Virus record (IMG/VR): IMGVR_UViG_3300033153_002551 | Span: 1-45,317 of that record | DNA length: 45,317 bases | Origin: a virus | Reading direction: 5' to 3' (one strand) | In this document: piece after piece, positions 1 through 45,176 of the stretch | Numbering within the stretch: position 1 is the first letter of the stretch | How the letters are laid out: every line of letters begins with the position of its first letter | The notes under the pieces: generated by a model | What the model was told of the DNA's origin: nothing | Databases searched by the model: none | What the model saw: only the letters and a program-made list of their open reading frames with translations | Position numbers and translations under genes: made by a program

Positions 1-114
1 AAACTTAGGTTTTGCTTATGCATTCAGACTTGCTATGACTCGTCATAAGGTCATAGTGTATTAATTATAAAGGATTTTTATGGCAATTCAAAATTCAGGC
101 GGATTTTTATCTGC
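1..114. repeat. Terminal overlap, left copy (circular assembly)
   Basis: These 114 bases are identical to 45204-45317. They cover the leader and first codons of the capsid gene. This is what a circular assembly opened at an arbitrary point looks like. The break lies inside a transcription unit, so it is not a natural genome end. True physical ends cannot be read from this window. Confidence 0.95.
33..56 (+). promoter_or_regulatory. Two alternative hairpins in the capsid gene leader
   Basis: CTATGAC (33-39) pairs with GTCATAG (50-56). TATGAC (34-39) can instead pair with GTCATA (42-47). The same left arm therefore has two partners, GTCATA and GTCATAG, 8 bp apart. The structure ends 23 bases before the capsid ATG and just ahead of the AAAGGA ribosome binding site. 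It could be a processing site, a translational control element or part of a late promoter. The pairing is seen; the role is inferred. Confidence 0.45.
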
Positions 115-1129
115 AAAAGTTACGGCAATTTACGACAGAATGTTACTTACTCGTGCGGTAGACAATCAAGTATGGGATATGTTCGGACAAGCTAAAACTG
201 TTCCTGCAGGCTCAAATACAAAGAAAGGTTTCGCATATAGATACAAAAATATCTTACCTGCAACTACTCCTTTAGCTGAATATGACGGTACTGTAAAAGG
301 TGCTAACAAAATCGTTCGTGAAGAAGTAGAATATGCAGTTGGTCACTATGGTGATTACATCATTTATACTGACGAACTTGACTTATATGACTACGATAAT
401 ATCCAGTCATCTTTCATGGACATCCTTGGTGACCAAGCTGATATGACTGTAGAAACTATCCGTCGTGATGTTCTACGTGGTGGTACTAATGTTATTTATG
501 CAAATGGTGCTGTATCTCGTTTAGCTATGGTTGACGCTGAAGTTGCTTCTGCAGGTGATGGTCTTGCTGTACTAAATGACTTCAAAATCGCTGCTCTTAA
601 ACTTAAGAAACAACGTGGTCGTAAATTTAAAAAGGTAATTGCAGGTACTGTTAAAGTTGGAACTACTCCAATTCGTTCTGCATATATCGGTGTTATTTCT
701 CCTGAAGTAACTGAAGATTACCGTGGTCTTGATAAATGGAAAGATGTTGAAGATTATGCTGATTACAGCAAATCAATCAATGAAGATGAAGTTGGTGCAT
801 TAGGTGATTTCCGTTTCGTAGAGTCATATAACAATGACCCTGTAGAACAAGTTGCAACTGATACTGAGACTTACAATGTATATCTTACTATCTTAATGGC
901 AATGGATGCTTACGCTACAACTACATTACGTGGTAAAGGTGGTATCAAATCTATCACTAAACCTCTTGGTTCTGCTGGTGCAGCTGACCCTCTTGACCAA
1001 TATGGTACAATCGGTTGGAAAGCAATCACTGGTGCAGCTATTCTTAATGAAGCATGGTTAATCCGTATGGAACAAATGGTTTCATTAGAAGATTCAACTG
1101 AGAAACACTACTACGACTATACAGTATAG
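80..1129 (+). CDS. Major capsid protein
   Basis: A 349-residue protein that I call the major head subunit. It directly follows the portal and acidic scaffold genes across the circle junction, which is the usual place for a capsid gene. The sequence fits an N4 gp56-like or other podovirus HK97-fold coat protein: a hydrophobic N-terminal region, a segment around residues 85-120 rich in Tyr and Asp (GHYGDYIIYTDELDLYDYDN), a mixed alpha/beta middle, and no membrane segments. AAAGGA lies five bases before the ATG. Codon use is skewed to GGT, CGT and GCT compared with neighbours, as expected for a highly expressed gene. The order portal, scaffold, capsid is seen; the fold is inferred. Confidence 0.85.
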   Translation: MAIQNSGGFLSAKVTAIYDRMLLTRAVDNQVWDMFGQAKTVPAGSNTKKGFAYRYKNILPATTPLAEYDGTVKGANKIVREEVEYAVGHYGDYIIYTDELDLYDYDNIQSSFMDILGDQADMTVETIRRDVLRGGTNVIYANGAVSRLAMVDAEVASAGDGLAVLNDFKIAALKLKKQRGRKFKKVIAGTVKVGTTPIRSAYIGVISPEVTEDYRGLDKWKDVEDYADYSKSINEDEVGALGDFRFVESYNNDPVEQVATDTETYNVYLTILMAMDAYATTTLRGKGGIKSITKPLGSAGAADPLDQYGTIGWKAITGAAILNEAWLIRMEQMVSLEDSTEKHYYDYTV

Positions 1130-1565: not shown

Positions 1566-2060
1566 ATGCCATTTTTTGAGGGAGCTGCGGGAGCAGTTGC
1601 TGGTCAAGCGGCAAATCAATTAGGTTCAGATGCAATTCTTCAAAGTATTTTCAATCCTGCTATGATACAAGGAACTGATGCTATAGTTAATTCTGCACTA
1701 GCTCCATCAATAGCTAATATTGGTGTAGAGGGTGGAATGGATGCATTATTAAATGCTTCATTAGGGAATGCCGCTATAGGTAGTACCGCACAAAATGCTT
1801 TACAGCAAGGTGCTGGTAATATATTCGGTGTCGGTACAAACATGGGTGAACAAAGCTTTGGTAGTCAACTCTCAGATTTATTCGGAGATAAGGGATTTAA
1901 CCAAGCTGTAGATACAGGATTCAAAGGCTTTCAACTAGCAGATACTATGGGTGCTAGAAAAGATGCTCAGAAATTTCAGAATGAGCAATTAGCTATGTCC
2001 AAGGATGCATATAATAGGAACGTTGAGGCTGATGAAAAAAGACAGTCACTCAACTTTTAA
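1566..2060 (+). CDS. Internal virion (ejection) protein, T7 gp14-like position
   Basis: A 164-residue protein rich in Gly, Ala, Gln and Asn with several amphipathic helices. The C-terminal end (FQNEQLAMSKDAYNRN then EADEKRQSLNF) resembles the tail of small phage internal core proteins, where a charged helix follows a membrane-active Gly/Ala-rich part. It starts four bases after the previous stop with no clear Shine-Dalgarno site, so it is probably translated by coupling. It is the first of three genes ending in the very large protein, the order small-medium-giant seen for T7 gp14, gp15 and gp16. The assignment rests on composition and order. Confidence 0.55.
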   Translation: MPFFEGAAGAVAGQAANQLGSDAILQSIFNPAMIQGTDAIVNSALAPSIANIGVEGGMDALLNASLGNAAIGSTAQNALQQGAGNIFGVGTNMGEQSFGSQLSDLFGDKGFNQAVDTGFKGFQLADTMGARKDAQKFQNEQLAMSKDAYNRNVEADEKRQSLNF

Positions 2061-2062: not shown

Positions 2063-2974
2063 ATGGCTATGCAGTTTAATCCATACAAGACATCGGCTGT
2101 ACCAATTGGAAGTAATCAATCAGTTATAGCACAACTAACCGGACAGGTTGGGAATGCAATTGGTGGATTAGGTCAATCGGTACAAGATGTAGGAACGGGA
2201 ATTCGTTCAAGTAAAGTTGCTGAGTTAATTGGCAGTGGAGCATTGAAAGGAATGAATGAACAGCAAGCTAGACAGGCTATAACATTAGCAGGTCAAGGTG
2301 CAGTGGACAAACAGACACAGAGCAATATTAATACTCTTCTCGGTGGTAAACAATCGGCTGAGCAAGCTAAGGTATTGGCTGATGCGAAACTTATGGCTGG
2401 AGATAAAGCTAATGCATTGACTCAACTTGGTATTAAATCAAGAGAGGACATTGCTAAACGTAGTGATGCTACAAGCAGAGCAAACGTTAAAACAACAACT
2501 GACCTATCTAGTTCTAATAGACTATTGAATGAAATGGCGGATATAGAATCAGCTAAGGTTGCTCAGAAAAATAAACTTGAACAACTTGGCTTACAAGCTT
2601 CGTTGAAACCAGGTGCTAAGACTGATGTTAAAGATATTGCAAAAGATATTAAAACTATGGGTGGTATCGATGAAATGATTGATAGTGCTCAGAATAAGAT
2701 TAGTGACAGACAGACATTTGTTGAAAGAGATTATTCTCAGAAGTCAAAAGACACTGTAAAAGGAGCTGTAAAAAGTTCCATACTAAATAACAAGTATTTG
2801 GCTGACCAATTCAGAATAGACCCAGAGGGATTTACTACTATGGTAATAGACCAACTTGGTACTACTGATGAATCATTATTCAATCCATTTGGAGAGGATG
2901 AGTGGATTCCAAATATAACTAAAGATACAATTGCTGACTTAGAGAAAAAGCTAAAGGCAATGAAGGGGAAATAA
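2063..2974 (+). CDS. Internal virion (ejection) protein, second of the cassette
   Basis: A 303-residue, mostly helical protein with a Gly/Gln-rich N-terminus, an Ala/Gln/Lys-rich central helix (about residues 60-190) and a more ordered C-terminal part ending in a Lys-rich tail. There is no signal peptide and no clear membrane segment. The start could be codon 1 or the Met two codons later. Only two bases separate it from the gene before and one from the gene after, so the three are one translational unit. Role as an ejection or core protein is inferred from position and helical composition. Confidence 0.5.
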   Translation: MAMQFNPYKTSAVPIGSNQSVIAQLTGQVGNAIGGLGQSVQDVGTGIRSSKVAELIGSGALKGMNEQQARQAITLAGQGAVDKQTQSNINTLLGGKQSAEQAKVLADAKLMAGDKANALTQLGIKSREDIAKRSDATSRANVKTTTDLSSSNRLLNEMADIESAKVAQKNKLEQLGLQASLKPGAKTDVKDIAKDIKTMGGIDEMIDSAQNKISDRQTFVERDYSQKSKDTVKGAVKSSILNNKYLADQFRIDPEGFTTMVIDQLGTTDESLFNPFGEDEWIPNITKDTIADLEKKLKAMKGK

Positions 2975-2975
2975 T

Positions 2976-5900
2976 ATGGCTGATAGATTAAGTGATATAG
3001 ATTTATATGAGGGACTCACTAAACGTGGGGAACTCCGTGACGCTATACTCGACCCAGTAACAAGTGGAGAAACATTCGTTAATGAAGTTGCTCTAGGTGG
3101 TGCTGGTGCTATAAGAAATATTAGTAACCTACTAGGCAACGTACCTGATGTTCTACTAGAGGGACGTGATAGTGCAGCTTTTAAGAACACTAAGAAAGTA
3201 CTCGAAGATAGAACAAAGGGTGATGCAGATAGAATATTAGATTTGCTTAAAGTTCCATTTCAAGATACTGCATACAGTCCGACTGATGCAATACTTGGAG
3301 AGGGAGTAACTACAGGTTTATATGAATCTATAGAAAAAGATAAGCAAGCTCTACTTAAGAAGCAAGAGTTAGGAAAACAATTTAGTGGCGGTGGTTTCGG
3401 TACCGTCGCTGCTGAGATGTTCATGGCTACTCCAATTATGCGTGCAGGCTCAATGAGAAGCACAAGTAAAGCATTGGAACTTGGTTTAAGTAAAGTAGAC
3501 ACTGCTAAAGCTGTAACCGTAGATGCATTGCGAAATGCTGGTATATTCGGTACTACTGAGTTTGGCTTAGCTAAACTATATGGTAAGACCGATGAAGAAG
3601 CGACAGGTAACGCACTTGCAGCTGCAGCTTTAGGTCTAGTTGGTAGCCCACTAGTTGGAGCAGGTAAAGGAATAGCACGTAGTTTAGGTGCAGAAGAGAG
3701 AGCTCTTAGAGCTGACTTTGAAGCAGGCGGTAGTCGTGCAGGTGGTGGTAAACCTCCTGAGATGGACGACCCAGACTTAGCTTTCCAAGAACCTAAAACT
3801 CCAATGACTGAAGCTCAAAAAAGTAAAACAATAGTCGAAGACGTTGAATATGATGTTGTTAGTCCAAAAGAAATAGATGGAGAACCGTTAACCGGTCAGA
3901 CATTTGTTCCAACTGTAAGTAACCCTAAGAAGTACACTTACAAGTTCGGTGTCAATGGTAGGGTTTATAACGAGCAAGCACATTTGCTTGCACCACAAGG
4001 CACTGCTGAACAAAAGGCTTCGTTGAAGATTAGACAGAAAGGATTGGTTGAAAATGCAGAAGCAGAAGTAAACCGTAGACTTGAATTCTATGACAAGGAC
4101 CAAGCGTTACGTTCAGCGTACGGACAAACACAAACTAAGTTCAAGGGCAAAAAAGAATTGTCCACAACTGAATCTATGGCCAAAAGGACTTCCTTTGAGA
4201 AAGCTCAATACCGTAACATTCTGAAAGATGATAATGTTGCAAGAGAAGTGAAACTTGAAGCTAGAAAGAAGTTAGAAGATATTCGAGATGTAAACGTAGT
4301 TAAAGAAACTGCTGCTCAACTTAAACGTGGAACTGAGAAGTTCTTGAAGCAACGTAAACTTAAAGAGCCAAGTGGACTTAAAGAACGTGACATTGATTTG
4401 AATGCTGAACATGAAGCCTACGTAAAGTCATTAGGAAACAAAGGTGGAAAAGACCAACGTGGAACTTTTGATTTAGGCACAACTAAAGGTCGTAGAGAAT
4501 TACTTGGTGGTGTAACTAAAACTATGGATAAAGAGAAAGCTATCAAAGCGATAGACAACTTAGAAATCCAAGAGAAGTTACGAGCTAAGGACTTCGATTA
4601 TAAAAACATTACTGATGAGCAACGTAAATTATATCGTGATGAGATAGCTGAGATTGAAGATTACTTCCACACAGTATCTGACATCAATGCATTCAAAAAG
4701 GGTAACCTTACTCCAGAGCAATTTCGCTTTAGAGCTAAGCGTAGACTTGATGAACAACTCGCAAAAGGTGAAGATGGTAAACCATTAACAAAAGAAGAAG
4801 CGGAAGAAGTAATAACTTCTAACGTTAAAGCTTATGAAGAAATTGGTATACACGTAGAGAAGCCTGAGTTGAAAGTTACTGACGATTCAGTACAAGCTCC
4901 AAAGAAAGGCAAAGGTAAAACTAAGCCAAAAGAAGAACCTGATAGAACCGCAGATATTGAAAAGGCGAAGAAGATACATGAAGACTTAGTCAGCACTATT
5001 AAGAAGTTTAGAGATACTGGGTTAAACCCTAGACGTACTTCCAAAGCTGGTGACAAAGGTGGACAACTAAAACTTAGTAAAAATATAGTTGATGATATCA
5101 AAGATGGAATACTCTCTGATGTTGAGATAGCAAATAAGACTGCACCTAACGTTCTGAATGAAGGACGAAAGGAAGCCATTGAAGCTGCTAGAGCACTTGC
5201 AAATCGTAAGGTTAGCGTAACTAAAGCTAAGGAATTAGGAATTAAGAAACCTGTTGGATTGCCTCAGAATATCCTATTCAAAGATACGGTTGTGGATGCT
5301 AGTAACTCTGTAATGCAGGTTGCTACTGTCTTGTTAGGTAACTCAAATCTTGCCAAACTGTCAAAGTTATTTGGTGGTAAAACAGATGTGAGAACTGTCA
5401 TAGGTGAAGAACTTACGAAGAAGCTTGGATATAAGGTCGATAAGGATATGGTTAAGCCTGTCTTTATGACTAAGAATTATGGACAAGGTGATAAAGGTTT
5501 AGTCAACAACTTGATGAAAGATAACAAGTGGGATAGACGTAAGGCTACTGAATTCCTTGAGGCTTATTATAAAGCTGAGGGTGATTTGATACCTGAACTT
5601 AAACAACTGCAAGACTTAGTTCAATCTAGAATTAAAGTTGGAAAAGCAAGTGAGGTCGAATGGACTCTCCCTGATGGGTTAGTGGTAAAACTCAACTTTG
5701 CTAAAGAGCTTGATGGAACTTATTCTATTAAGGGTAAGGATATTCCAATAAGTATTAAGAGCGCTTCTATTGATGAAATGAGTCGTGCCTTAATGCCTAA
5801 TATAATTCACTCTGTGGATGCATATGTTGCAAGACGTATGAATGCCAAAGGTATACCTACAGTTCATGATGCTTTCACTATACCTAAGGGTATGGAGAAA

Positions 5901-8885
5901 ATGGCTGATGCTGAGTATACTAAGATTATGCAAGAGATTAACGATAGCTCGTTACTTGATGACATACTTAAAAACATTGGTGTTGATTCTAAATCACTTC
6001 CAAAGCGTGACTTACCTAGTTCTAAAATTGCTGAGTCAGAGTCTAAACTCGGAGTTGAGCATACTGCTGGAAAAGCAGAAGAGGTTCAACCGAGAACTAT
6101 GGACGTTAGCAAATCAAATACAACTGAAGAAGTAATGCGTGACTATATGGCTTCTAGTAATGTTCGACAACTTTCAACACCTCAACTTATAGATGGGCTA
6201 GTGAATGAATCGTCGTACAGAACAATGTCTGTCGCAAAAGAAACTGATGATGTGTTTGAAAGACAAATAGCATTGGCTCACCAATCAGCAACATATAATC
6301 CTAAGATGGAAATTGATGTACCTGATGGTGTGAATAAAGAAGTTTGGAATAGAGTCCAACGTGACATATTCAATGAAGCTAGGTCTAAACTGGAGTACAA
6401 TCCGTTGTTGCGTGATACGTTACAAGGCAATAGAAAATACTTTAATAAGCAAGGTAAAATCGTAGGTGATGACAAACAGTCGTTACAGCAATTTATTCAA
6501 CGTGAAATTCGGAATGACCGTAAGTTAGATAAGTTGAGAAATGCAGATGAGAAAGAAGCGTTAAAGACAGTAGGTAAAGACTATGAATCAGTTAAGAAGA
6601 AAGTTGATTCGTGGAGTACTGAAAAGAACTTAAATGAAGACCAACTCTCTGCAAAGAAAACTGTAAATGAAGCTTCTGGTGCTGAACCTGAACCTATGCA
6701 TCGTGAGACATTAGATGGAGTCAAGAAATACTTTACAGACCAGTACAAGAGTACTGTAGAGAGTAAGGCTTTTAGACGTTTGTCTAATATCCGTAAGACT
6801 CGTGATAGAGAAGTGCAGTATGAAGCTGAAAAGGTTTACATTGAACTTGATAGATTGATGAAAGCATCTAAGACTAAATCGAAAGATTGGACTAAGCACA
6901 TACTTAACACTGACTTTCACTCTATACGTCACATGGACAAAGATGTGGCTATGGACTATGCTAAAGAATTTGATTCGGTTTACCAAAGAGCTAAGCCTTA
7001 TATAGACCAACATGTCAAAGCACTGAATGACAAATCACAACAAACGGGATATTATCTCAATAATGCTAGACAGATTGCTGATGCGGTTGGACTCGACGCA
7101 AGTCATGCTCCAATAATCGATAGGCTTATATCTGTGAAAGCAATGACTGATGATGGTTGGAAGTTTGTTGATGAGAACCGTGGTTCAGAACTTTGGGATA
7201 TGTCTATGAATATCATGAAAGAGAATAGAGTCAAGTCAGCTGAGAACTTTGCTTCTAATCCACAAGGATTCGTTAAAGGATTCACTAAAGAGTACTACGG
7301 AAGTGGTAAGCAATTAGTTGGAAGAAAAGTAATGTGGGATGCTGAAGACAAGGCTGCTCAAGGGTTAATCCCGATGGAAGCTGAAGCTAAGAAAGTTGGT
7401 AAGGTTACTGACAAAACTAAAGTCCCTTACAGCAAATTTAAGAGTCGTGAAGAGTTGCTTGATTATGCAGCTGCAAACGATTTGAAGGTTACTGATAAAG
7501 GCTTTAGACAAATTGAGAATGCTGATTTAAGAAACCAAGCAGGACGTAGTGATGACTTTACGAGAATACTCTCAGAGACGTCTCACTCTATTGACCAAAA
7601 GATGGCTGATAGAATGACTTCTACAGATATACTTAAAGAACTTGATGCAGAAGATTCTTTAATCAGTACTAAACCAAAAGATAACTTTCGTGAAATAACA
7701 ATGGATGAGCGTAATGCTATGCCTCATTCACTGCAAGGTAAAGTTAGATATGTTCATAAAGACTACATTGATAGAATTGTAGGTCGCAGAGAAACAAGAC
7801 TAGTTCAAAAGGGAAGAGACGTTGCTGGTGCAAACCAACGATGGAAGATTGCCGACAGACTACTTGGTGACTTTGTTGCTAACTTCAAACAAAATGTTGT
7901 ACTGAAGAATATATCTTCGTTTAAGAATGCTATACTTGTTAATCAAACTATTGCGACTATGGCTGGAGTTACTCCGACTAAGTCTTATAGATTGCATAAA
8001 GAAGCTATGAATCAAATTAAACGTAATGATAACTTAAGAAGCAAGATTGCACTATTGAAAGTACAGGGTAAACCATATAAGCATATACAGAAAAGATTAG
8101 AACAATCTGACTTATATCAAATGGAACAACTTGGACTCTCACTTAATCAACTTGATGGTGTTCGTGGAGATAGTTCTCTACTCGCACATATGTTATCTGA
8201 CTTTACAGGTAATCGCTTTGATAAGATTGCTAATGAAGTTCTACTTAATCAAAAAGGGAAAGCTGGTAAGTTCACAACTTCAGTCTTCTCTACTATTGAT
8301 ACACAAGGTAGATATACTGTAACTAAGCAATTCATTGAAGATGGTTTTACAATGCAAGAAGCAGTAAACAAAGCAAATGGTTTATTTGGTGACATGGATG
8401 AGATGGCTCCAGTCCTAGTGGAAGCTATGGATAAATATGGAGCTATACCGTTCTTGAAATGGTATACTCTGACATCACCACAGTTAATGAAATTAGCTAA
8501 AGATAATCCAAAGAAAACTGCAATGTTATCAGTTGCACTTTATGCTATGTCAGCAGAGACAGACATGAACTTCAGTACGGTTAATCCGATTGAAGCTATG
8601 GTTGACTTCGCAGATAATGCCATGAGTTTAGATTACTTGGAAGCAGTTACTAAGAAAGGGTTTGTTAATCCTACTATTAGAAAGCTGACTCCATATGTCG
8701 TTCCTAACGCATGGCAGGATATAGATAGAGTGTTCACTGATGTAGGTGAAGAATATACATTAAGACCGGGAACTAAGCGTAAGGCTTACAACCCATTGGT
8801 TAAAGATAGAATTGGAGCTCCGTGGTCTGAAGATAGTTTAGACTACCGTGGGTTTACACAAAAAGTAATACAAGGAACGAAATGA
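2976..8885 (+). CDS. Giant virion-type RNA polymerase / ejection protein
   Basis: A 1,969-residue protein with a single-subunit (T7-family) RNA polymerase palm in its middle. Motif A is VVDASNSVMQ with catalytic Asp774. Motif B is KPVFMTKNYGQG with Lys827 and Tyr835. Motif C is MPNIIHSVDAYVARRM followed by VHDAF, with His964 and Asp965. A WTLPDGL segment lies between B and C. Residues 1-260 are Gly/Ala-rich and helical; 260-700 are highly charged; 1000-1969 are helical, with a hydrophobic C-terminal part (GAIPFLKWYTLTSPQLMKLA) as in large phage polyvalent or ejection proteins. N4 virion polymerase has the same plan but about 3,500 residues. I could not find a DxxGR motif upstream of motif A. 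The gene overlaps the next by ATGA. Confidence 0.8.
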   Translation: MADRLSDIDLYEGLTKRGELRDAILDPVTSGETFVNEVALGGAGAIRNISNLLGNVPDVLLEGRDSAAFKNTKKVLEDRTKGDADRILDLLKVPFQDTAYSPTDAILGEGVTTGLYESIEKDKQALLKKQELGKQFSGGGFGTVAAEMFMATPIMRAGSMRSTSKALELGLSKVDTAKAVTVDALRNAGIFGTTEFGLAKLYGKTDEEATGNALAAAALGLVGSPLVGAGKGIARSLGAEERALRADFEAGGSRAGGGKPPEMDDPDLAFQEPKTPMTEAQKSKTIVEDVEYDVVSPKEIDGEPLTGQTFVPTVSNPKKYTYKFGVNGRVYNEQAHLLAPQGTAEQKASLKIRQKGLVENAEAEVNRRLEFYDKDQALRSAYGQTQTKFKGKKELSTTESMAKRTSFEKAQYRNILKDDNVAREVKLEARKKLEDIRDVNVVKETAAQLKRGTEKFLKQRKLKEPSGLKERDIDLNAEHEAYVKSLGNKGGKDQRGTFDLGTTKGRRELLGGVTKTMDKEKAIKAIDNLEIQEKLRAKDFDYKNITDEQRKLYRDEIAEIEDYFHTVSDINAFKKGNLTPEQFRFRAKRRLDEQLAKGEDGKPLTKEEAEEVITSNVKAYEEIGIHVEKPELKVTDDSVQAPKKGKGKTKPKEEPDRTADIEKAKKIHEDLVSTIKKFRDTGLNPRRTSKAGDKGGQLKLSKNIVDDIKDGILSDVEIANKTAPNVLNEGRKEAIEAARALANRKVSVTKAKELGIKKPVGLPQNILFKDTVVDASNSVMQVATVLLGNSNLAKLSKLFGGKTDVRTVIGEELTKKLGYKVDKDMVKPVFMTKNYGQGDKGLVNNLMKDNKWDRRKATEFLEAYYKAEGDLIPELKQLQDLVQSRIKVGKASEVEWTLPDGLVVKLNFAKELDGTYSIKGKDIPISIKSASIDEMSRALMPNIIHSVDAYVARRMNAKGIPTVHDAFTIPKGMEKMADAEYTKIMQEINDSSLLDDILKNIGVDSKSLPKRDLPSSKIAESESKLGVEHTAGKAEEVQPRTMDVSKSNTTEEVMRDYMASSNVRQLSTPQLIDGLVNESSYRTMSVAKETDDVFERQIALAHQSATYNPKMEIDVPDGVNKEVWNRVQRDIFNEARSKLEYNPLLRDTLQGNRKYFNKQGKIVGDDKQSLQQFIQREIRNDRKLDKLRNADEKEALKTVGKDYESVKKKVDSWSTEKNLNEDQLSAKKTVNEASGAEPEPMHRETLDGVKKYFTDQYKSTVESKAFRRLSNIRKTRDREVQYEAEKVYIELDRLMKASKTKSKDWTKHILNTDFHSIRHMDKDVAMDYAKEFDSVYQRAKPYIDQHVKALNDKSQQTGYYLNNARQIADAVGLDASHAPIIDRLISVKAMTDDGWKFVDENRGSELWDMSMNIMKENRVKSAENFASNPQGFVKGFTKEYYGSGKQLVGRKVMWDAEDKAAQGLIPMEAEAKKVGKVTDKTKVPYSKFKSREELLDYAAANDLKVTDKGFRQIENADLRNQAGRSDDFTRILSETSHSIDQKMADRMTSTDILKELDAEDSLISTKPKDNFREITMDERNAMPHSLQGKVRYVHKDYIDRIVGRRETRLVQKGRDVAGANQRWKIADRLLGDFVANFKQNVVLKNISSFKNAILVNQTIATMAGVTPTKSYRLHKEAMNQIKRNDNLRSKIALLKVQGKPYKHIQKRLEQSDLYQMEQLGLSLNQLDGVRGDSSLLAHMLSDFTGNRFDKIANEVLLNQKGKAGKFTTSVFSTIDTQGRYTVTKQFIEDGFTMQEAVNKANGLFGDMDEMAPVLVEAMDKYGAIPFLKWYTLTSPQLMKLAKDNPKKTAMLSVALYAMSAETDMNFSTVNPIEAMVDFADNAMSLDYLEAVTKKGFVNPTIRKLTPYVVPNAWQDIDRVFTDVGEEYTLRPGTKRKAYNPLVKDRIGAPWSEDSLDYRGFTQKVIQGTK

Positions 8886-9292
8886 TTGAAGGATGGATGA
8901 TAAGCTTATTAATAGCAATTATTACACTCGTAGCTAGCTACGCAGTAATGAAAAGTAATGTTGCTAAAAGTGCTAAAACCATTGATACTCTAGTCAACGA
9001 AAATAAGGTCTTAAACGACTTTATGACTAGTAAAGCGCCTCTGCTTAACCATTTGTCCAAGAAGGAGAACTTCGTGGATGGAAAGATTGAAGAGATGGGT
9101 AAAGAGATAGTTGAGATTCGTACTCAAATGGCTCAAGTACCTACTATGAAGAATGTACGAGATGAGTTCGTTTCGAAGGAGCTGTTTCGACAAATGGAAA
9201 AGCATATGGACGAGAAGTTCGATGGTTTGCAAGTTATGCTAATGAAGGTTTTAGCTAATCAAGAACGTATGGATAGTAAACTAACACAGTAG
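8882..9292 (+). CDS. Membrane-anchored coiled-coil protein, probable i-spanin or small holin
   Basis: A 136-residue protein with an N-terminal membrane segment (about residues 5-22, MISLLIAIITLVASYAVM) followed by a long charged coiled coil with no Pro breaks until late. This is the topology of inner-membrane spanins and of some single-segment lysis proteins. It overlaps the giant gene by four bases (ATGA) and precedes the holin, so it opens the lysis block. No lipoprotein partner (o-spanin) is visible nearby. Spanin is the better call from the long periplasm-compatible coil, but a structural tail role cannot be excluded. Confidence 0.5.
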   Translation: MIEGWMISLLIAIITLVASYAVMKSNVAKSAKTIDTLVNENKVLNDFMTSKAPLLNHLSKKENFVDGKIEEMGKEIVEIRTQMAQVPTMKNVRDEFVSKELFRQMEKHMDEKFDGLQVMLMKVLANQERMDSKLTQ

Positions 9293-9379
9293 TGACAAAC
9301 AGATGTGAAACGTGTTGCGTTTCCGTCTTATCATTATCTGCGGTTAGTCCTCAGTACGTATAATGCGATAAGGATTTCA

Positions 9380-9844
9380 ATGATAATTGAAGGTTTTAAG
9401 CTGGCTACGCTTGCTGTCAAAGGAGTAGTAAACTACTTCTCGGATAGCCAAGAGATAAAGAAAGCCAAAGAAGATGGTAAGATTGCTGTATTGAAAGCTG
9501 ATGCAAATCAGAAGATAGCGGTAAGTCAAGCCAAGATAAGAATGGCAGAGAGTGGTCAAACAGATGACTATAATCTAGATAGAATTGCAATGACAAATAT
9601 GAACAAGTCCTACAAGGATGAATTCGTTTTGGGTATATTCCTTGCTCCAATGATAGCGGCATTTTTTCCTGGTTATGCAGGGTACGTAGAGAAGGGATTT
9701 AGTGTAATAGCTAAGATGCCTGATTGGTACATGTATTTAATCGTGGGAATGGTCGTAGTTATCTATGGCATGCGAGGTATGTTAACTAAAGTTTTAGATG
9801 GTCGATTCACTCTATTTAATAAGGGTAAATCATCGGGAAAGTAA
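9380..9844 (+). CDS. Holin, GTA-type 3TM-like
   Basis: A 154-residue protein from the ATG at 9380, which has AAGGA eight bases upstream. An in-frame open stretch reaches back to 9305 but has no comparable ribosome binding site. The N-terminal half is charged and helical (EIKKAKEDGKIAVLKADANQ). Two membrane segments follow at about residues 82-104 and 116-133. This layout matches holins related to the gene-transfer-agent 3TM family. The last codons are TCG GGA AAG TAA, a G GGA AAG slippery heptamer directly before the stop. The lysozyme domain lies in the -1 frame immediately after it. Confidence 0.65.
   Translation: MIIEGFKLATLAVKGVVNYFSDSQEIKKAKEDGKIAVLKADANQKIAVSQAKIRMAESGQTDDYNLDRIAMTNMNKSYKDEFVLGIFLAPMIAAFFPGYAGYVEKGFSVIAKMPDWYMYLIVGMVVVIYGMRGMLTKVLDGRFTLFNKGKSSGK
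9821..9841 (+). promoter_or_regulatory. Candidate -1 programmed frameshift site
   Basis: In the holin frame the heptamer G GGA AAG (9835-9841) fits the X XXY YYZ rule and is followed at once by the TAA stop. An SD-like AAGGG (9821-9825) lies nine bases upstream, about the spacing of the stimulator in E. coli dnaX. A small hairpin TCGAG ATT CTCGA (9866-9878) lies downstream, rather far for a classical stimulator. Slipping by -1 enters the lysozyme frame at GTA (9841). All sequence elements are seen; function is inferred. Confidence 0.6.
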
Positions 9845-10362: not shown

Positions 10363-10690
10363 CGTTGAAGCGAACGTAGTGAGCGTGTCCATCACCAAAT
10401 TACTTGTTATGTGGCGACGTTCATTACTGCAATGAATCATCCATTCTAAAAACTCTAGTCGTTGATGTATTCGTAACCAATTTGTCTAATTAAGTGGAGG
10501 AAAAGAGAAAAAATATTTTTTGGAAACTCGACTCCTCTCTTATTCTTGCCAAATCCTAACAACGTAGTTACAATGTCTATGTAATGACTCAGCACTACGC
10601 TGATTAAGTAGATGTATATAACCTACATATGTAACAATATGTGGTTATGATGTGACCTTTAGGTACATGACAAGAAAAAAAATAGCCTAA

Positions 10691-10733
10691 GGCACAACTC
10701 AAAGTGAGGTTTTAATCTTAGGCGAAACTTAAA
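10691..10733 (+). repeat. 43-bp repeat, copy 1
   Basis: The pattern is GGCACA, eight variable bases, TGAGGTTTTAATCTTA, seven variable bases, CTTAAA. The same pattern with identical spacing recurs at 18010-18052. In this copy the core lies inside a hairpin formed by GCCTAAG and CTTAGGC. It occurs only in the two large non-coding blocks, so it is a candidate phage promoter, operator or RNA element. Confidence 0.6.
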
Positions 10734-11063
10734 CATAAAAGTAGTTACTTTGCAGTTAATTTGCAAATTGCTAGATACCCCCTATACCCGTACAAGGCAG
10801 TATAAGGGTACTACAAGGCAAGATTAATTGTAAAGTGACCTTTGATATGGATAAGTAAAAAAATAATATATAGTAGTATATGGGTATAGCAAACAGATGA
10901 TACAATGTATAAGACTGTAAATGTGTATAATATAGCTGTGAAACGCATATTAAGCACCATACAAGGCGATATAGATGGATAATGATGTTTGGTATAGGTA
11001 GATGAGAAACGTGCTGTAAATGGCTTTATATTGAATAATATAGAAAAATTTAAGTGTTGAGGT

Positions 11064-11074
11064 AGAGTCATTCT
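11064..11074 (+). repeat. AGAGTCATTCT repeat, copy 1
   Basis: An 11-base sequence that also occurs at 11650-11660. Each copy can form a hairpin with loop GTCAT: TAGA/TCTA here, GCAGA/TCTGC in the second copy. The flanks differ but preserve pairing, which hints at a conserved RNA or DNA stem. Confidence 0.4.
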
Positions 11075-11649
11075 AACACCAACATGCAGAGCCAACGGAA
11101 CGCACAGTCTACCCCCCCCCTTATCTACTGTATGTAACCATGAAGCTTCCTTTTTAATCACTGTAAACACCGTAAACTAGGGCATTGTCGTACAATTGCA
11201 CGCAGTTATGTATGTACATGCATTATAATGGCAAGGTATTATGGAAAGGACAGTGCAAATCAACACAATCTATCAGTGCAAAATCACTACCTACCTAACA
11301 CATATCACAGTAAACTCAATCATAACATCAGTATCAATACAACGTAGTTGTCAGTAACCTAACGGTTACAATCTTAGTGGAATGGTGGAGACATCATTTA
11401 TGTTCGCTTGCATCCTAATCAAGCCGTTGGATACTCTCATCGTGAATAGAGTATGGTCACAGCAACTCCTAAGCTTAACATTGGATGACTGATGGAATAG
11501 AACATCAAAGCTTAGCATGAGCCTACATATGCACAAGACCTTCATACGAGGGCAACTGCATGAATCAGTCTAAACACTAGGAATATAGGTATATCAGCCG
11601 GAATGATATACACGTTTGGCAACTACGGGAAATAAGTTGTGACCGATGC

Positions 11650-11660
11650 AGAGTCATTCT
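11650..11660 (+). repeat. AGAGTCATTCT repeat, copy 2
   Basis: Second copy of the 11-base sequence at 11064-11074. Here the stem is extended to five pairs (GCAGA with TCTGC, 11648-11662 region). It lies about 135 bases before the first early gene. Confidence 0.4.
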
Positions 11661-11744
11661 GCTAACAAGGCTATAATGGCTAACTAACAACGCAGTACAA
11701 TCAAATAGGTGTAGTCTACATCTCCAACAAGTTGACAACGTAAT

Positions 11745-11781
11745 AAGGCACAGTAGTTGCCTTGTTCGTGCAAGTATAATA
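11745..11781 (+). promoter_or_regulatory. Hairpin plus TATAAT before the first early gene
   Basis: AAGGCA (11745-11750) pairs with TGCCTT (11758-11763), and a TATAAT follows at 11776-11781, 14 bases before the first early ATG. No -35 box is found at 16-18 bp. TTGACA is at 11732-11737, too far away. The element may serve a phage polymerase rather than the host enzyme. Low certainty. Confidence 0.3.
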
Positions 11782-11794
11782 GAGTGTCAGTAAG

Positions 11795-12126: not shown

Positions 12127-12136
12127 AGGATATATC

Positions 12137-12241: not shown

Positions 12242-12274
12242 GACTTGTTTATTTTTTAGAGTAAAGGATTTATT

Positions 12275-12409: not shown

Positions 12410-12422
12410 CAAAGGATTTATC

Positions 12423-12749: not shown

Positions 12750-12758
12750 GAATAAACA

Positions 12759-12944: not shown

Positions 12945-12945
12945 C

Positions 12946-13276: not shown

Positions 13277-13285
13277 GGAGATTAG

Positions 13286-13504: not shown

Positions 13505-13513
13505 GGAAACAAT

Positions 13514-13642
13514 ATGAATGAAGAAATAGATAAGCTTATAGATAAATACACACAATGGTTATCTGAAACTTGGGTAGAAGCAAGAAAGCATACATATCAA
13601 ATAATAATACAAGACCTTAAAGAATTAAAGGAAAACACATGA
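13514..13642 (+). CDS. Small helical protein, 42 aa, coupled to RNA polymerase gene
   Basis: A 42-residue amphipathic helical protein (MNEEIDKLIDKYTQWLSETW). Its stop overlaps the RNA polymerase start (ATGA at 13639-13642), so the two are translated together. GGGAAAC upstream is a weak ribosome site. Being coupled to the polymerase makes a regulatory or accessory role conceivable, but nothing in the sequence proves it. Confidence 0.5.
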   Translation: MNEEIDKLIDKYTQWLSETWVEARKHTYQIIIQDLKELKENT

Positions 13643-14592
13643 ACTTAAATGGACTAACACAGTTAGAAATAGAAGAAGAATTCGATAATACAAACATGAA
13701 AACAATGTTAATGGTAGAATTGGAACTATTCTTACAACACATAGGTGATGAGCATTGGAATACAATGTCAAATCTAATTGGAACTGGAAAAGAAGAAGTA
13801 CTTGAAGATATGTTTATCTATATGTTATCAATACTTGGTAACGAGAAAGTAGGCATGAAGATAGGACTAAACAATAACAATGAAGAAGTAAGCACCAATG
13901 CAAGAACTTGTGTAGCTATAAGCAATGCAAGAGACATTGAAGTTTACAACTTAATTCAAGCCATAGGTGTATCACCTATCATGAACAAGTTATTCGATAA
14001 TCCTATCGATAGATTCAATACAGCAATGGACATAGTAGCTGAATTCGATACAGTCTTATTCGACCTACATAAGAAAACAATCAAGCTTGAGAATGGAGAC
14101 TACACTACAGTAACATATGCTAGAACTGAATTAACATTCAAGGAAGAAGTAGGACTACGTGCTCAATACAATCGTTTCAGACTTCCAATGATTGAAACTC
14201 CTGATGATTGGACAGAGAATAGCAAAGGTGGTTACAAACTCAATAAGAGTAAAGTGACTACAAACAGAGGTGATGGTAATCAACCACAAGAATGCTTAGA
14301 CGTACTCAACAAGCTACAAAGACAACCATATATGCTAGTAGATGGCGTATGTGCTATCAATGAGAATCATTACCTTGTAGAAGAACTTAAACCTAAGTCA
14401 CTATCATACATTGAAGCACAACAAAAAGCTGATATGATTAGCTTAACAACGGAACAAACATATGGAGCACTCAAAGACAAACCATTCTACTTTGAATGGA
14501 AGTTTGACTTTAGAGGCAGACTATACAGCACAGGTTATGACATTAACCTACAAGCTAATAAATACAAAAAGGGAGCTATACAACCATGCTAG
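13639..14592 (+). CDS. T7-family RNA polymerase, N-terminal chain (split gene)
   Basis: A 317-residue product matching the N-terminal half of single-subunit phage RNA polymerase. It contains the PPM-like region (FRLPMIETPDDW, about residues 175-195) and, near its end, the DxxGR-type motif DFRGR (Asp290 to Arg294) in FYFEWKFDFRGRLYSTGY, matching WRGRVY of T7. The protein stops at KKGAIQPC, where T7 continues into the palm. The next frame carries motifs A, B and C. The two frames overlap by seven bases and differ by -1. N4 RNA polymerase II is also made of two chains, but here DxxGR is on the first chain. A one-base assembly error cannot be excluded. Confidence 0.8.
   Translation: MNLNGLTQLEIEEEFDNTNMKTMLMVELELFLQHIGDEHWNTMSNLIGTGKEEVLEDMFIYMLSILGNEKVGMKIGLNNNNEEVSTNARTCVAISNARDIEVYNLIQAIGVSPIMNKLFDNPIDRFNTAMDIVAEFDTVLFDLHKKTIKLENGDYTTVTYARTELTFKEEVGLRAQYNRFRLPMIETPDDWTENSKGGYKLNKSKVTTNRGDGNQPQECLDVLNKLQRQPYMLVDGVCAINENHYLVEELKPKSLSYIEAQQKADMISLTTEQTYGALKDKPFYFEWKFDFRGRLYSTGYDINLQANKYKKGAIQPC
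14565..14592 (+). promoter_or_regulatory. Overlap/frameshift zone of the split polymerase
   Basis: C AAA AAG is in frame at 14565-14571, followed by GGAG (14572-14575), ATG of chain 2 (14586) and TAG of chain 1 (14590-14592). A -1 slip at AAA AAG would fuse the chains with the same inter-motif length as T7. The GGAG ten bases before the ATG instead favours reinitiation. The sequence allows both. Confidence 0.45.
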
Positions 14593-15653
14593 CACAACAC
14601 TTAACTGAACAAGGTCTTAAATGGCTAATGGTAGATATTGCCAATACATATGGTAATGACAAAGCAACAACTGAAGAACAAGTAGCTTGGGTAAACAACA
14701 ACGCTACAGTATTAGAAGCTCATACTCCTGAAGCTGAATCTCCATATGAATACATGAATGCAGTCAATGCATTACGTCAACATCAACGTGGTGAACCTGT
14801 TAAACACATGATGTATGTAGACTGTAGTAATCAAGCACTTCAATTATATGGAGTACTAACAGCAGACTATGACACAGCATATATATGTAATCTTAGCAGT
14901 GGTTCAGTAAGAACTGATGCTTATGGCTTACTAGCTGAACAAATGAACATAGAGTTCAACACAGATATATTCAATCGTAAGAACTGTAAGAAAGCACTAA
15001 TGACTACACTATATGGTAAACGTCATGCTGAAATGGTTATCTTAAATGAAATGAATATATCGCTAGAAGATATAGCAGTACTACTCAATGTAGACATGAC
15101 TGATAATCCAGATTGGTTAGCAGATAAGTTTACACATGCTATGTCAGTAATCGCTCCTAAAGCTATGGAAGCTATGGAGAAGATACAAGCATTAAATGAC
15201 GAAAGAATCGACACATACTATTGGACAATGCCTGATGGTTTAAATGTTAAATATGACGTTAAACGTGATATTCAATATGAAGCTGAAAGAACATCTAAAA
15301 GTGGTATTCGTTTCTCATTCTCAACTGATACGTCAATCTATGGCGGAACTAAATTCAATGCAGGTATGGCTCCAAATGTAATACACAGTGTTGATGGCTA
15401 TGTAGCTAGACAACTCATTCGTTCTATGAATGACAAATACATTACATCAATCCATGATGCATTCGGAGTACATCCTAATGACATACAAGAACTAAAAGAC
15501 AACTATGCTCATATCATGGTAGAACTACTTAATAGTAATCTACTTGAAGACATAATGAAAGAAATAGCAGGTGGTCGTACTTATACAGTACCAACTAAGA
15601 TTAATAATCTTACAGAAGAGCATATCTTAAGCTCTAAATATGCAATAGCATAA
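14586..15653 (+). CDS. T7-family RNA polymerase, C-terminal catalytic chain
   Basis: A 355-residue product with the palm and fingers of the polymerase: motif A YVDCSNQALQ (Asp79), motif B KKALMTTLYGK (Lys136, Tyr143), WTMPDGLNVKYDV, motif C APNVIHSVDGYVARQ, then SIHDAFG (His290, Asp291). It begins with MLAQHLTEQGLKWL, which corresponds to the T7 region just after the KGLL segment, so little or nothing is missing between the chains. AGGGAG ends ten bases before the ATG, so independent initiation is possible. Alternatively C AAA AAG (14565-14571) could allow a -1 shift from the first chain. Motif spacing (A to B 57 residues) is shorter than in T7 (94) and close to the giant polymerase (53). Confidence 0.85.
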   Translation: MLAQHLTEQGLKWLMVDIANTYGNDKATTEEQVAWVNNNATVLEAHTPEAESPYEYMNAVNALRQHQRGEPVKHMMYVDCSNQALQLYGVLTADYDTAYICNLSSGSVRTDAYGLLAEQMNIEFNTDIFNRKNCKKALMTTLYGKRHAEMVILNEMNISLEDIAVLLNVDMTDNPDWLADKFTHAMSVIAPKAMEAMEKIQALNDERIDTYYWTMPDGLNVKYDVKRDIQYEAERTSKSGIRFSFSTDTSIYGGTKFNAGMAPNVIHSVDGYVARQLIRSMNDKYITSIHDAFGVHPNDIQELKDNYAHIMVELLNSNLLEDIMKEIAGGRTYTVPTKINNLTEEHILSSKYAIA

Positions 15654-41422: not shown

Positions 41423-42154
41423 ATGGCAAATAATACAGATGCATTCTTGGTTGACTACGAAAAGATATCGGTTAAAATGTTGGGTGCAAGCTCAATTCAA
41501 ACTAATATGTTAAAGTCAATACAAGAACTATTTGATAACTTTAGCCTTGATAGTCAATCGTCAGCTCAAGTGCTTTCTGAGATAGCAGTTCAAACTTCAG
41601 TGCAGTATAATAAAGATGCAATTGGTGCCGCAATGGAACTGATTAAACTTGATTATGAAGCTGATGTTAAGAAAGAACAAGCTAAACTAATTATACGTCA
41701 AAAGCAAGGTTACGATGATAATATGCTATTGAAAATAGTTGAACATCAAGCTGGTCTAGCTTCGTTCGCAGTTAATGCAGGAAGTGATACAGCTCAAACT
41801 ACAATTGATAGCCTTAAGCAAAAGATGACTGCCGTTGAGAATAGAGTAATATCTCTTGATGGTGAAGCCCAATGTCCTGCTCCGCCTAATATAACACCGG
41901 TTCCACAGAATCTATCCATTACAAATATCTCTGATACTGTAATTGATTTATCTTGGAGTGCTGTTGCTGAGGCAACTTCGTATCTATTATATAGAGATGG
42001 AGTATTAATTGCAACTCAAGGTAGTTTAACATTTAACGATGATGAACTTGACTTTGAAACTAAATACGCATACAGTGTTAAGGCTTCTATTGCTGGTGTT
42101 GAGTCTGACTTCTCACAAGTAGTAATTGGTCTTACATTGGCTGAGGTTGTATAA
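41423..42154 (+). CDS. Virion protein with C-terminal fibronectin type III domain
   Basis: A 243-residue protein. Residues 1-140 are helical. Residues 152-240 form one FN3 domain (PQNLSITNISDTVIDLSWSA, then TSYLLYRDGVLI and FETKYAYSVKASIAG). Such domains on tailed phages often decorate the surface and help adhesion. AAAGGAG precedes the ATG. Overlaps the portal gene by one base. Confidence 0.7.
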   Translation: MANNTDAFLVDYEKISVKMLGASSIQTNMLKSIQELFDNFSLDSQSSAQVLSEIAVQTSVQYNKDAIGAAMELIKLDYEADVKKEQAKLIIRQKQGYDDNMLLKIVEHQAGLASFAVNAGSDTAQTTIDSLKQKMTAVENRVISLDGEAQCPAPPNITPVPQNLSITNISDTVIDLSWSAVAEATSYLLYRDGVLIATQGSLTFNDDELDFETKYAYSVKASIAGVESDFSQVVIGLTLAEVV

Positions 42155-44157
42155 TGAGTACTGATAATACAGTTGATGAAACAACTACAAACGACAGAGC
42201 CTTTTCAGCTTTCAAGAAAGATTACAAAGCTGCGAAGACTGCAAAACAAAAAGGCATAGATGATTTAATAGCAGATTGGAATGACTTATACTATGGAAAG
42301 AGTAAGGTTCTGAATAAGAATCGCTCACAAATAGTTATGAAAGAGATAGCAAAGCAAATAGAATGGCAGAAGCCTAATATTACAGAGCCGTTTCTATCAA
42401 CGTCACACCCTGTTAGAGTATCATCTCCAAACAGAAAGTACGCTGAGAAATATCTAAATAGTCACTTTACTTCGACATTCAATCGTGATGACTTCATTGA
42501 GCAACTGACAGACGTCAAGCTTAGAGAAGGAACTGCATGGGTTAGAAGTGGATGGAAATCTACGGATAAAACCGAAGAATACACTATGACTATGGATGAG
42601 ATACTTCAGCGTGAAGATGAGCCAACTAGCATTATTAATAATGATGATGGTACTTTCACTGTAGAATTCAAAGTTATTGATGAGAATCATGGTACTGCAA
42701 GGGTATGTAGAAACGAACATTGTTTCCCAGACCCAGGTGCTAAAGTTCATGCAGAGTTAAGATTCTTTGCTGAGAAGAGATTGGTAACGATATCTGAACT
42801 TAGAAAAACTGGATTCTACCCTAAAGAGAAAATCGATGAACTTGTTGATAAACTCAATGAGAAAGACGGTTCAAGACAAGGTTCGTTAGAGAACCAACGT
42901 GACTCAGATGGTGAACAATATGGTCAAGACTATAGACATCAGACTGAAGATGACCCTAGAAAGAAAGTTTCAATTATAGAATACTGGGGATACTACGACC
43001 TTAATGGTGATGGTATCGCTGAACCTGTACTTGCTACTTGGGCAGAGAATGAAGATGTTGATTTAGAATTAACTGATAATCCTCTACCTCGTCAGAACAT
43101 TCCATACTACAATGATGTTTATAGTAAACGTCCATTTAGTCTATGGGGCAATGCTTTGGCTTACTTTATAGGTGATAACCAAAAGGTTAAAACTGGTATC
43201 GTTCGTGGTATATTAGATAATATGTCATTGGCTAATAATGGACAGAAGTTCATAAAGAAAGGAACTCTAGATTACATAAACTTTAAACGTATGCGTAATG
43301 GAGAGAGACACATCGTAGTTAATAAGACTGATGGTATAGAAGATGGTTCATATAATAATTTACCTAATTCTATATTCAACACCTTATCTATGATTACTTC
43401 TGAGACTGAGCAACTGTCTGGAGTTAGTTCCGGAGGCCCTGCATTGAGTAATGATATGCTGGCTAAGGACGACACAGGTGGCATGCAACTTACGATGGCA
43501 CAACAACGAATGGCATCTTTGGTTAGGAGCACATCCAACTTGTTACGTAAAGTAATGGTTGATTGGGTTACTATGGCTGAGGTCTTTTTGGACAACAGTC
43601 AAATCGAAGAGATATTCTCAGAAGAAGAACAGACAGATTATTTTGCCTTTAAGAATTCAATCAAAACGAAGATTAGTCTTAAAGTTGGTACAGATGTAAA
43701 TCGAACTGTAAAAATGCAACAACTTAATATGTTACTTCAACAATCAAAACAACTCGGAGAAACAGTTCCGCCTGATACATTTAATGAATTAGTTGCTGAA
43801 ATGTTTGAGTTATTTGATATGTATGAGAAAGCTGAAGAACTACGTAACTACAAACCTGAACCTAATCCTATGCAACAAAAAGCACAGATGTTAGAGCTAC
43901 AGAAACTTGAACTTGAGAATCAGAAAACGCAGGTAGAAATACAAGCTGCTCAATCTGAAATAGAGAACAAGCGTATGGCTGCACATAAAGGTATGATAGA
44001 CGCGCAAGCTGGAGCTATGTATAAAGAATCGCAAAAAGGTGAGAAGGATGCTAAAGCTGAGAAACATAGAGTTGACTCTGCATTAGAACCTGCCAAAGCT
44101 ATTTCTGAAATGCAAGCAAAAGCACAACAACAAGAACAACAAAGGAGAACCATTTAA
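42154..44157 (+). CDS. Portal protein
   Basis: A 667-residue protein. KPNITEPFLSTSHPVRVSSP in the N-terminal part, a Tyr/Trp-rich central domain (IIEYWGYYDLNGDG), SGVSSGGPALSNDMLA with the following long helix RMASLVRSTSNLLRK, and a C-terminal Gln-rich coiled coil (about 570-667). These fit N4-like/SPP1-type portals. Position before scaffold and capsid genes is typical. It forms the ring through which DNA is packaged by the terminase. Confidence 0.8.
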   Translation: MSTDNTVDETTTNDRAFSAFKKDYKAAKTAKQKGIDDLIADWNDLYYGKSKVLNKNRSQIVMKEIAKQIEWQKPNITEPFLSTSHPVRVSSPNRKYAEKYLNSHFTSTFNRDDFIEQLTDVKLREGTAWVRSGWKSTDKTEEYTMTMDEILQREDEPTSIINNDDGTFTVEFKVIDENHGTARVCRNEHCFPDPGAKVHAELRFFAEKRLVTISELRKTGFYPKEKIDELVDKLNEKDGSRQGSLENQRDSDGEQYGQDYRHQTEDDPRKKVSIIEYWGYYDLNGDGIAEPVLATWAENEDVDLELTDNPLPRQNIPYYNDVYSKRPFSLWGNALAYFIGDNQKVKTGIVRGILDNMSLANNGQKFIKKGTLDYINFKRMRNGERHIVVNKTDGIEDGSYNNLPNSIFNTLSMITSETEQLSGVSSGGPALSNDMLAKDDTGGMQLTMAQQRMASLVRSTSNLLRKVMVDWVTMAEVFLDNSQIEEIFSEEEQTDYFAFKNSIKTKISLKVGTDVNRTVKMQQLNMLLQQSKQLGETVPPDTFNELVAEMFELFDMYEKAEELRNYKPEPNPMQQKAQMLELQKLELENQKTQVEIQAAQSEIENKRMAAHKGMIDAQAGAMYKESQKGEKDAKAEKHRVDSALEPAKAISEMQAKAQQQEQQRRTI

Positions 44158-45176
44158 TGGCACTAGAAGAAGATTTAGAACAAGAGTTGCAGGACATGAT
44201 TGCGGAAGCAGACAAAGAACGCGAAGAGGATTTAGGTGGCGATGATGCTGCTGATGATGATAATGATGGTCAAGAAAAAGAGGATGAAAACTTAGATGAA
44301 GATGAATCTCCTGACAATGACGATGATAATAATGACGATGATGGCGATAGTGACGATGATTCCAATGATGACGACGCTGATAAATTAGACGAAGATGAAG
44401 ACGAAGATGGTGATGAAGATGATTTTGAACCTATTGAAGTTGAGATTGACGGAAATAAGATAACAGTTAATTCACAGGAAGAGTTATTAACTCTCGCTAG
44501 AAAAGGTCTAAAGTCTGTAGATATCAAACCCAATGTTGATTCAGAAGTTGATGCTTTTGTAAAGCAAGCTGGATGGACTAAAGAAGACTTAACTTTATTA
44601 GCTGATGCAAGAAACGGTGATGCTAACGCTATCGCTAAACTTGCTGAGGTAGCTAAGGTTGATGTACTTGATATTGAATCTGAAAAAGCAGGTGATTATA
44701 AACCTACGTTTGAAGTACAGGCTCAGTCTGAAATTGATATAGTTGCTAGTGAAATACTAAATGACACTGAACATGCAACTGTGTTTAAAGATACAGTGAA
44801 AACTTTACCTCAAGACTTCGTACAGACTATTTCGAATGATGCTGGAATGCTTAAGGCGTTCTCGTCTCATCTTAAGAATGGTTTAGCACAAGAGGTTATA
44901 CCTCAAGTAAGAAAAGAAATGGCACTTAAAGGTGGAACATTCTTCGAGAACTACGCTAGACTTGGTCAAGAAGTTTCCAACAAGAGAGCTGATGCTGAAA
45001 AGCCAGCTCCTAAGCAAGAACAAAAGAGAGAAATCTCTGAGAAAGAAAAAAAGCTGAGAGCAAGAGCCGATGGTTCTGACAACTCACAGTCAAGCAAGAA
45101 AACTAAGACAACTGCTGAAGATATACAAAGTATGTCAGAAGAAGACTTCGCTAAGTTAATCGCTCCAAAAGACTAG
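44157..45176 (+). CDS. Acidic scaffold / head-assembly protein
   Basis: A 339-residue protein. Residues 10-95 are an extreme Asp/Glu run. The middle is helical. The C-terminus is Lys-rich (QEQKREISEKEKKLRARADG), the usual capsid-binding end of a scaffold. It is located between portal and capsid genes. It overlaps the portal stop by one base. The 27 bases before the repeat (45177-45203) are G-rich (GGGTGGGAGGGTGG). Confidence 0.8.
   Translation: MALEEDLEQELQDMIAEADKEREEDLGGDDAADDDNDGQEKEDENLDEDESPDNDDDNNDDDGDSDDDSNDDDADKLDEDEDEDGDEDDFEPIEVEIDGNKITVNSQEELLTLARKGLKSVDIKPNVDSEVDAFVKQAGWTKEDLTLLADARNGDANAIAKLAEVAKVDVLDIESEKAGDYKPTFEVQAQSEIDIVASEILNDTEHATVFKDTVKTLPQDFVQTISNDAGMLKAFSSHLKNGLAQEVIPQVRKEMALKGGTFFENYARLGQEVSNKRADAEKPAPKQEQKREISEKEKKLRARADGSDNSQSSKKTKTTAEDIQSMSEEDFAKLIAPKD

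Follow-up and report, generated by a model that had tools for sequence, protein, structure and literature searches.

The DNA analysed here (the window) is the complete 45,317-base virus record IMGVR_UViG_3300033153_002551, the first 114 bases of which are identical to the last 114, as would be seen in a complete genome that has direct ends or was assembled as a circle. When the sequence is followed past the contig ends, the gene order runs from the large terminase through tail genes, the portal, a gp57-type gene and the capsid to a small ejection cassette with a predicted virion RNA polymerase (vRNAP) gene as its last member, the capsid gene being followed by genes for proteins of 124, 164 and 303 amino acids (aa) and then by the polymerase (Table 1). 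The vRNAP open reading frame has exactly the bounds listed, with an ATG start and no internal stops. Together with RNAP1 and RNAP2 of the phage's own RNAPII it makes three RNA polymerase genes, which is a Schitoviridae trait, and a DNA primase (PHROG 2135), a Sak4-like annealing protein, an SSB and an exonuclease are also encoded in the window (PHROG labels).

Table 1. Genes, protein regions and candidate control elements in the window, with the basis on which each was assigned.
Feature	Position	Strand	Basis
Major capsid protein	80..1129	+	PHROG 1357
Gene 1 of the ejection cassette (164 aa), at the place of gp52	1566..2060	+	Weak gp52 profile match (E = 1.1e-4, Prob 57)
Gene 2 of the ejection cassette (303 aa), at the place of gp51	2063..2974	+	Position only
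Predicted compact vRNAP gene, 1,969 aa	2976..8885	+	ORF, PHROG 2051, motifs, C-terminal homology
N-terminal domain, ~residues 1-290, presumed membrane part	2976..3845	+	Hydropathy
GR (DxxGR-like) segment, residues 315-353	3918..4034	+	RNAP1-end match; R329 invariant
Helical insertion, GR segment to motif A, ~residues 354-763	4035..5264	+	Model, spacing
Polymerase palm/fingers core, residues 764-1026	5265..6053	+	Motifs A (D774), B (K827/Y835) and C (H964-D965); fold
C-terminal domain homologous to N4 gp50 2699-3460, residues 1249-1864	6720..8567	+	Profile comparison
Stretch ahead of the early genes in which no gene is listed, candidate early control region	10363..11794	+	Elements conserved in relatives
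C-run in this stretch	11112-11120
Further elements in this stretch	11141-11154; 11555-11579; 11663-11687
RNAP1 of the phage's own RNAPII	13639..14592	+	PHROG 2166; DFRGR motif at end
RNAP2 of the phage's own RNAPII	14586..15653	+	PHROG 2051; 30% identity to vRNAP core
Large terminase	31823-33385		PHROG label
Portal protein	42154..44157	+	PHROG 1216
gp57-position protein, PHROG 2120 (annotated tape measure)	44157..45176	+	PHROG match

The corresponding order in N4 is portal gp59, 58, 57, capsid gp56, 55, 54, 53, 52, 51 and vRNAP gp50, and the vRNAP is also the last gene in phi50-12, phi176, pYD6-A, D517, DSS3phi2 and EcP1. A first reading made from the sequence only had correctly placed the polymerase last in a three-gene cassette, where a third, gp16-like ejection protein would be expected, and had correctly called it much shorter than N4 vRNAP (1,969 vs 3,500 aa); its further claim that N4-type polymerases lie in a different gene order is contradicted by N4 and these six annotated N4-like phages. 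The 303-aa protein gave no match when compared with the gp51 profile (E = 0.12). T7 gp16, the third ejection protein of that phage, shares the gene position and the presumed inner-membrane role of the window protein, and is not known to be a polymerase. The N4 vRNAP has already been described in print as the third of the ejection proteins and as the analogue of T7 gp16 (PMC12633501).

PHROG 2051 (RNA polymerase) matches residues 773–956 of the vRNAP (E = 6.6e-22), and the window RNAP2 matches the same family. Searches of Pfam and of PDB sequences with the 1,969-aa protein returned no credible match, and in tblastn comparisons with phage records the core alone was matched, weakly and mostly by RNAP2 and other phage RNA polymerase genes. 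When the protein was aligned with nine relatives, the residues of motif A (D774 and Q781), motif B (K827, Y835 and G836) and motif C (H964–D965) were invariant in all ten, as was R329 of the GR element, which bears out the earlier description of an open 1,969-residue frame with complete T7-family motifs A, B and C. An AlphaFold2 model of residues 278–1057 (mean pLDDT 69.7, pTM 0.42) matched the N4 RNAPII chain 6dt7_B with a VIA Z of 19.6 and 3.1 A over 237 residues (residues 487–749 of the model, corresponding to 764–1026 of the protein) and also matched T7 RNAP with Z up to 17.9; no N4 vRNAP chain was present among the structural matches listed. A polymerase fold had been anticipated around residues 700–1000, and the palm predicted by AlphaFold2 at 764–1026 agrees with this.

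The layout around this core is unusual. The names DxxGR and TxxGR and the T7 and N4 residue numbers that we use were checked against the sequences. Residues 315–353 match both the RNAP1 end (E = 1.8e-5, Prob 78) and T7 418–446 (E = 8e-4), with the full DxxGR found in only 5 of 10 proteins and replaced by GVNGR in the window; this segment was modelled at pLDDT <50, yet a number of structural alignments put it on T7 417–419. The GR Arg and the motif A Asp are 445 residues apart in the window and 372–510 in the relatives, compared with 112 in T7 and 135 in N4 vRNAP, and motif B lies closer to both A and C than it does in T7 or N4. The intervening insertion, modelled alone, was helical (pLDDT 74.6, pTM 0.40) and had no PDB structural match at E 0.001 or better, which does not show that it is a new fold, and profile comparison found no homology between it and N4 vRNAP. 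It should be noted that the subunit split of N4 RNAPII falls at the same place, as RNAP1 ends soon past its DxxGR. The N-terminal domain, in which the most hydrophobic 19-residue stretches are at 212, 136 and 38, likewise had no homology to the N-terminus of N4 gp50 in profile comparisons. In T7 gp1, N-terminal and thumb domains precede the DxxGR, whereas the GR segment in the window lies only some 40 residues from the N-terminal domain, so that, judging from length, space for T7-type N-terminal and thumb regions appears to be absent. This layout, and the degeneracy of the GR segment in half of the proteins, might be taken to mean that the core has lost its polymerase activity and that the protein serves only in ejection or as a scaffold, but all ten diverged proteins retain the two catalytic Asp residues, Lys and Tyr of motif B and the GR Arg unchanged; as dead enzymes do not keep such invariant residues, we regard a loss of activity as unlikely.

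The connection with N4 is found towards the other end of the protein, where residues 1249–1864 were aligned by hhalign with N4 gp50 2699–3460 (Prob 99.6, E = 7.1e-24, 611 columns). The only other match in 18 comparisons was between the same domain and full-length gp50 (E = 4.7e-23), with the remaining 16 having E values of 0.03 or worse. The sequence-only reading had suggested a lineage distinct from N4, which cannot be reconciled with this homology nor with the N4-type RNAP1, RNAP2, primase, portal and capsid, and the gp50 match led us to abandon the thought that the protein had arisen quite apart from N4. A polymerase of unrelated lineage, lying beside ejection genes by chance, would be in keeping with an N-terminus, an insertion and a gp51-position protein that have no homology to N4 proteins; it is already largely refuted by the C-terminal match, with the same gene order and the N4-type genes just listed as further points against it, and we give it next to no credence. 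Late synthesis of an active polymerase that stays out of the virion is also very improbable, as the core forms one chain with a gp50-type ejection C-terminus and is encoded directly behind the cassette genes.

We have filed the protein as an N4-type vRNAP because of its gp50-like gene position and C-terminal domain, and consider it a compact gp50-type virion polymerase on account of the shared gene order, the C-terminal homology and the N4-type RNAP1, RNAP2, primase, portal and capsid. Points against this are the core, which matches RNAP2 far better than the giant vRNAP core, the lack of the ExDGxxxG and HExxH motifs, and an N-terminus, an insertion and a gp51-position protein for which no homology to N4 proteins was found. 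Both motifs are absent from all nine compact proteins and present in all eight giant vRNAPs (a set of 8 from 381 matching records), and a fused metallopeptidase domain with HExxH is described for the N4 gp50 family (PMC5512222). All nine full-length compact proteins, that of the window included, are also shorter than the reference range for vRNAPs of 2,842–3,820 aa given in an IMG/VR survey of N4-like viruses (PMC10654107). Gene position and C-terminus place the protein in the gp50 lineage, and its length and motifs lie outside the published criteria.

Compared with known systems, the window protein resembles N4 gp50 in being encoded last after the capsid and ejection genes, in its homologous C-terminus and single-subunit motifs, and in having RNAP1 and RNAP2 alongside; it differs from the 3,500-aa N4 protein, which has ExDGxxxG and HExxH, in length and in the loss of both, in a motif A of the D-A/V-S-N-S-x-x-Q type, in the GR Arg to motif A distance and in an N-terminus without detectable relation. 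N4 RNAPII (gp15 RNAP1 and gp16 RNAP2) has the nearest core by profile and by fold (6dt7_B, among the matches listed), and the end of its RNAP1 matches the GR segment. The body of RNAP1 was not found in the window vRNAP, which is unlike N4 RNAPII in being one chain within an ejection protein, with a long helical insertion and a gp50-type C-terminus. The T7 gp1 RNA polymerase has the palm fold and motifs in common with the window vRNAP and, unlike the role proposed for the latter, is a non-virion protein.

No relatives came up when viral contigs were scanned with the full-length vRNAP, and these were found instead by capsid, portal and core-alignment scans, which identified 3, 12 and 15 loci in viral contigs, respectively (six of the 15 were on contigs already found, and L059 was a further full-length relative). 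The core-alignment scan of genome contigs gave two matches, including a 43.6-kb contig binned with a Helicobacteraceae MAG (L071, WTBY01000035.1) in which the gene order is the same and the homologue has 2,041 aa. The nine relatives are located in contigs of 24–47 kb, one of them in this MAG, and the full-length compact proteins range from 1,872 to 2,481 aa (n = 9, including the window); a divergent homologue of 2,112 aa was found in a 35-kb viral record. A vRNAP match was present in six of ten records examined, the other four being fragments of 7–20 kb, and was accompanied by an RNAP2 match in four of the six and in two further records (G011 and the MAG, G013). As binning can be wrong, L071 provides a weak host clue, and we link the phage group to Campylobacterota tentatively by this one MAG; the Campylobacterales listed among predicted hosts in the IMG/VR survey (PMC10654107) are in agreement with it.

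Some relatives show peculiarities of their own. The vRNAP gene of L007 is split, by error or in fact, over two overlapping frames (8654–13543 and 13516–16320, with ORFs of 1,629 and 934 residues) and was omitted from the full-length alignment for this reason, and the vRNAP of AD45-P1 is likewise annotated with a 'potential frameshift'. An extra N-terminal region with RY, then ExxxHG and then TExY is found in the vRNAPs of L050, L051, L052, L007, L059 and L071 and is absent from the window, L048 and L049; a small GIY-YIG-like nuclease domain was suspected by eye at the N-termini of some relatives, for which Pfam gave nothing. L063 encodes (7014–8756) a 580-aa single-chain RNA polymerase with GR and A–B–C motifs that groups with the RNAP2s of N4-like phages and is an unsplit RNAPII-like enzyme.

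The phage itself carries the Schitoviridae hallmarks of capsid, portal and large terminase (by PHROG label), and its portal matches those of N4-like phages and of Alteromonas phages such as AD45-P1 (26–32% identity, among the matches listed). However, Schitoviridae genomes are 59–80 kb (PMC7650795) and the window falls below this range, and DNA polymerase is a hallmark gene of the family in the survey's definition (PMC10654107), whereas a family A DNA polymerase (PF00476) was found in none of the five contigs of 44–47 kb (the window, G001, G002, G004 and G005). A portal tree, in which the outgroup branch is very long, placed seven N4-like isolates in one clade (99/98) to the exclusion of the 13 portals of the compact group (81/76), which came from ten of the 12 portal-scan loci (without the truncated L032 and frame-broken L035) plus the window, L025 and L071. 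We have not filed the phage under Schitoviridae because of genome size, DNA polymerase and portal placement. Pseudoalteromonas phage vB_PunP_Y3, of the Poorviridae, has been described as N4-derived but outside Schitoviridae; this phage is reported to keep an N4-like DNA polymerase (PMC11654794), which was not found in the window's group.

We are confident, then, that the window encodes a compact vRNAP of the N4 gp50 lineage in an N4-like phage of ~45 kb that lies outside Schitoviridae as defined. According to its stated filters, the IMG/VR survey removed proteins of <2,500 aa and required ExDGxxxG, and its high-quality genomes had all seven hallmarks, DNA polymerase included (PMC10654107); as all nine proteins fail the length and ExDGxxxG filters, the compact group would have been missed. 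Among the papers listed in literature searches we found no description of a vRNAP of such short length. The compact layout, the RNAPII-like core, the two lost signatures and the absence from the survey make this a clear new form of the N4 virion polymerase.

The stretch before the early genes contains elements conserved in relatives, which may be early promoters or control sites of another kind. Identical sequences of 25 bases at 11555 and 25 at 11663 are common to the window and G005, and L071 keeps 23 of 24 bases of the 11555 element, while TGAAGCTTCCTTTT at 11141 is common to the window, G004 and G001. The longest chance-shared word in 50 shuffles was 13–15 bases, so that the 25-base matches are not due to chance and the 14-base match alone could be. 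The 11555 element can form a 4-pair stem, which in a single case (L071) is kept by a change on both sides. Each of the five regions examined has a single C-run of 7–10, and that at 11112–11120 is the window's only run of seven or more C or G. The early region has nine short hairpins, compared with 4.05 ± 2.0 in shuffles, and GC-richer hairpins, a few of which were counted twice under two loop lengths, were above the shuffled mean in four of six regions (the window, G004, G005 and G001, but not G002 and L071). We make no claim of hairpin promoters as no hairpin sequence common to the six regions was found. Sigma-70-like sites occurred at chance level (14 vs 16.9 ± 4.8), and an Rfam search gave two matches, both below gathering scores.

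Profile comparisons of the catalytic core gave matches to RNAP2 (E = 4e-35) and to T7-type single-chain enzymes (E = 1.4e-23), and a much poorer one to the core of the giant vRNAPs (E = 6e-4, Prob 28). In a tree without giant vRNAPs, the compact cores and the RNAP2s of the same group were sisters (94/90), and a single clade of all RNAP2s (seven from N4-like isolates and five from the window's group) was disfavoured (p-AU 0.033). These results, the nearness of profile and fold to RNAP2 (the fold among the matches listed), the match of the GR segment to the RNAP1 end and the position of the insertion at the RNAPII split point would all suit a gp50-type ejection protein in which a duplicate of the phage's own RNAPII took the place of the core or served to build it anew, the helical insertion lying where RNAP1 and RNAP2 join, and which would still work as a virion polymerase. 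When the eight giant vRNAPs were added, a single RNAP2 clade was rejected (p-AU 0.008), but the compact and giant proteins now grouped together (49/26), with the alternative of compact cores and own-group RNAP2s only 0.21 log units worse (p-AU 0.36). The giant vRNAPs are also on a long branch, and nearness to RNAP2 may therefore only mean slower change. The trees fit either core replacement or descent shared with the giant vRNAPs, with faster change in the giant line; core replacement is a possible origin that we would stop short of calling probable.

We infer packaging, ejection, early transcription, promoter type and C-terminal function along the following lines. The head would contain a few vRNAP copies, which would leave it after the two smaller cassette proteins, and the N-terminal domain would perhaps hold the vRNAP at the inner membrane. 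Transcription of the early region by the core would yield RNAP1 and RNAP2 among its products, and these would succeed it as the phage's own RNAPII; the C-terminal domain may act as in N4, where it damps activity. More speculatively still, and with considerable doubt on our part, single-subunit virion polymerases might have had two origins, here through a duplicated RNAPII built into an ejection protein of gp50 type. A new helical domain of ~400 residues, where RNAP1 and RNAP2 join, would then recognize promoters in place of the missing N-terminal domain, and might do so at the conserved elements that precede the early genes.

Giant size has so far been treated as a hallmark of N4 vRNAP, and the N4 literature still asks how 3,500 residues can pass through a narrow tail (PMC12633501). 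A version with not much over half the N4 length, with another layout and without the peptidase motif, should be easier to express and helps to separate the needs of an ejected polymerase, presumably a short N-terminus, palm and fingers and a conserved C-terminal domain, from the peculiarities of N4. It also indicates that length and motif filters in surveys of N4-like viruses hide a group. Finally, we note that this 45-kb phage encodes a ribonucleotide reductase (26425–28575) with a weak match to a B12-type insertion domain, an ATP-dependent DNA ligase (29579–30439) and a ThyX thymidylate synthase (30436–31194).
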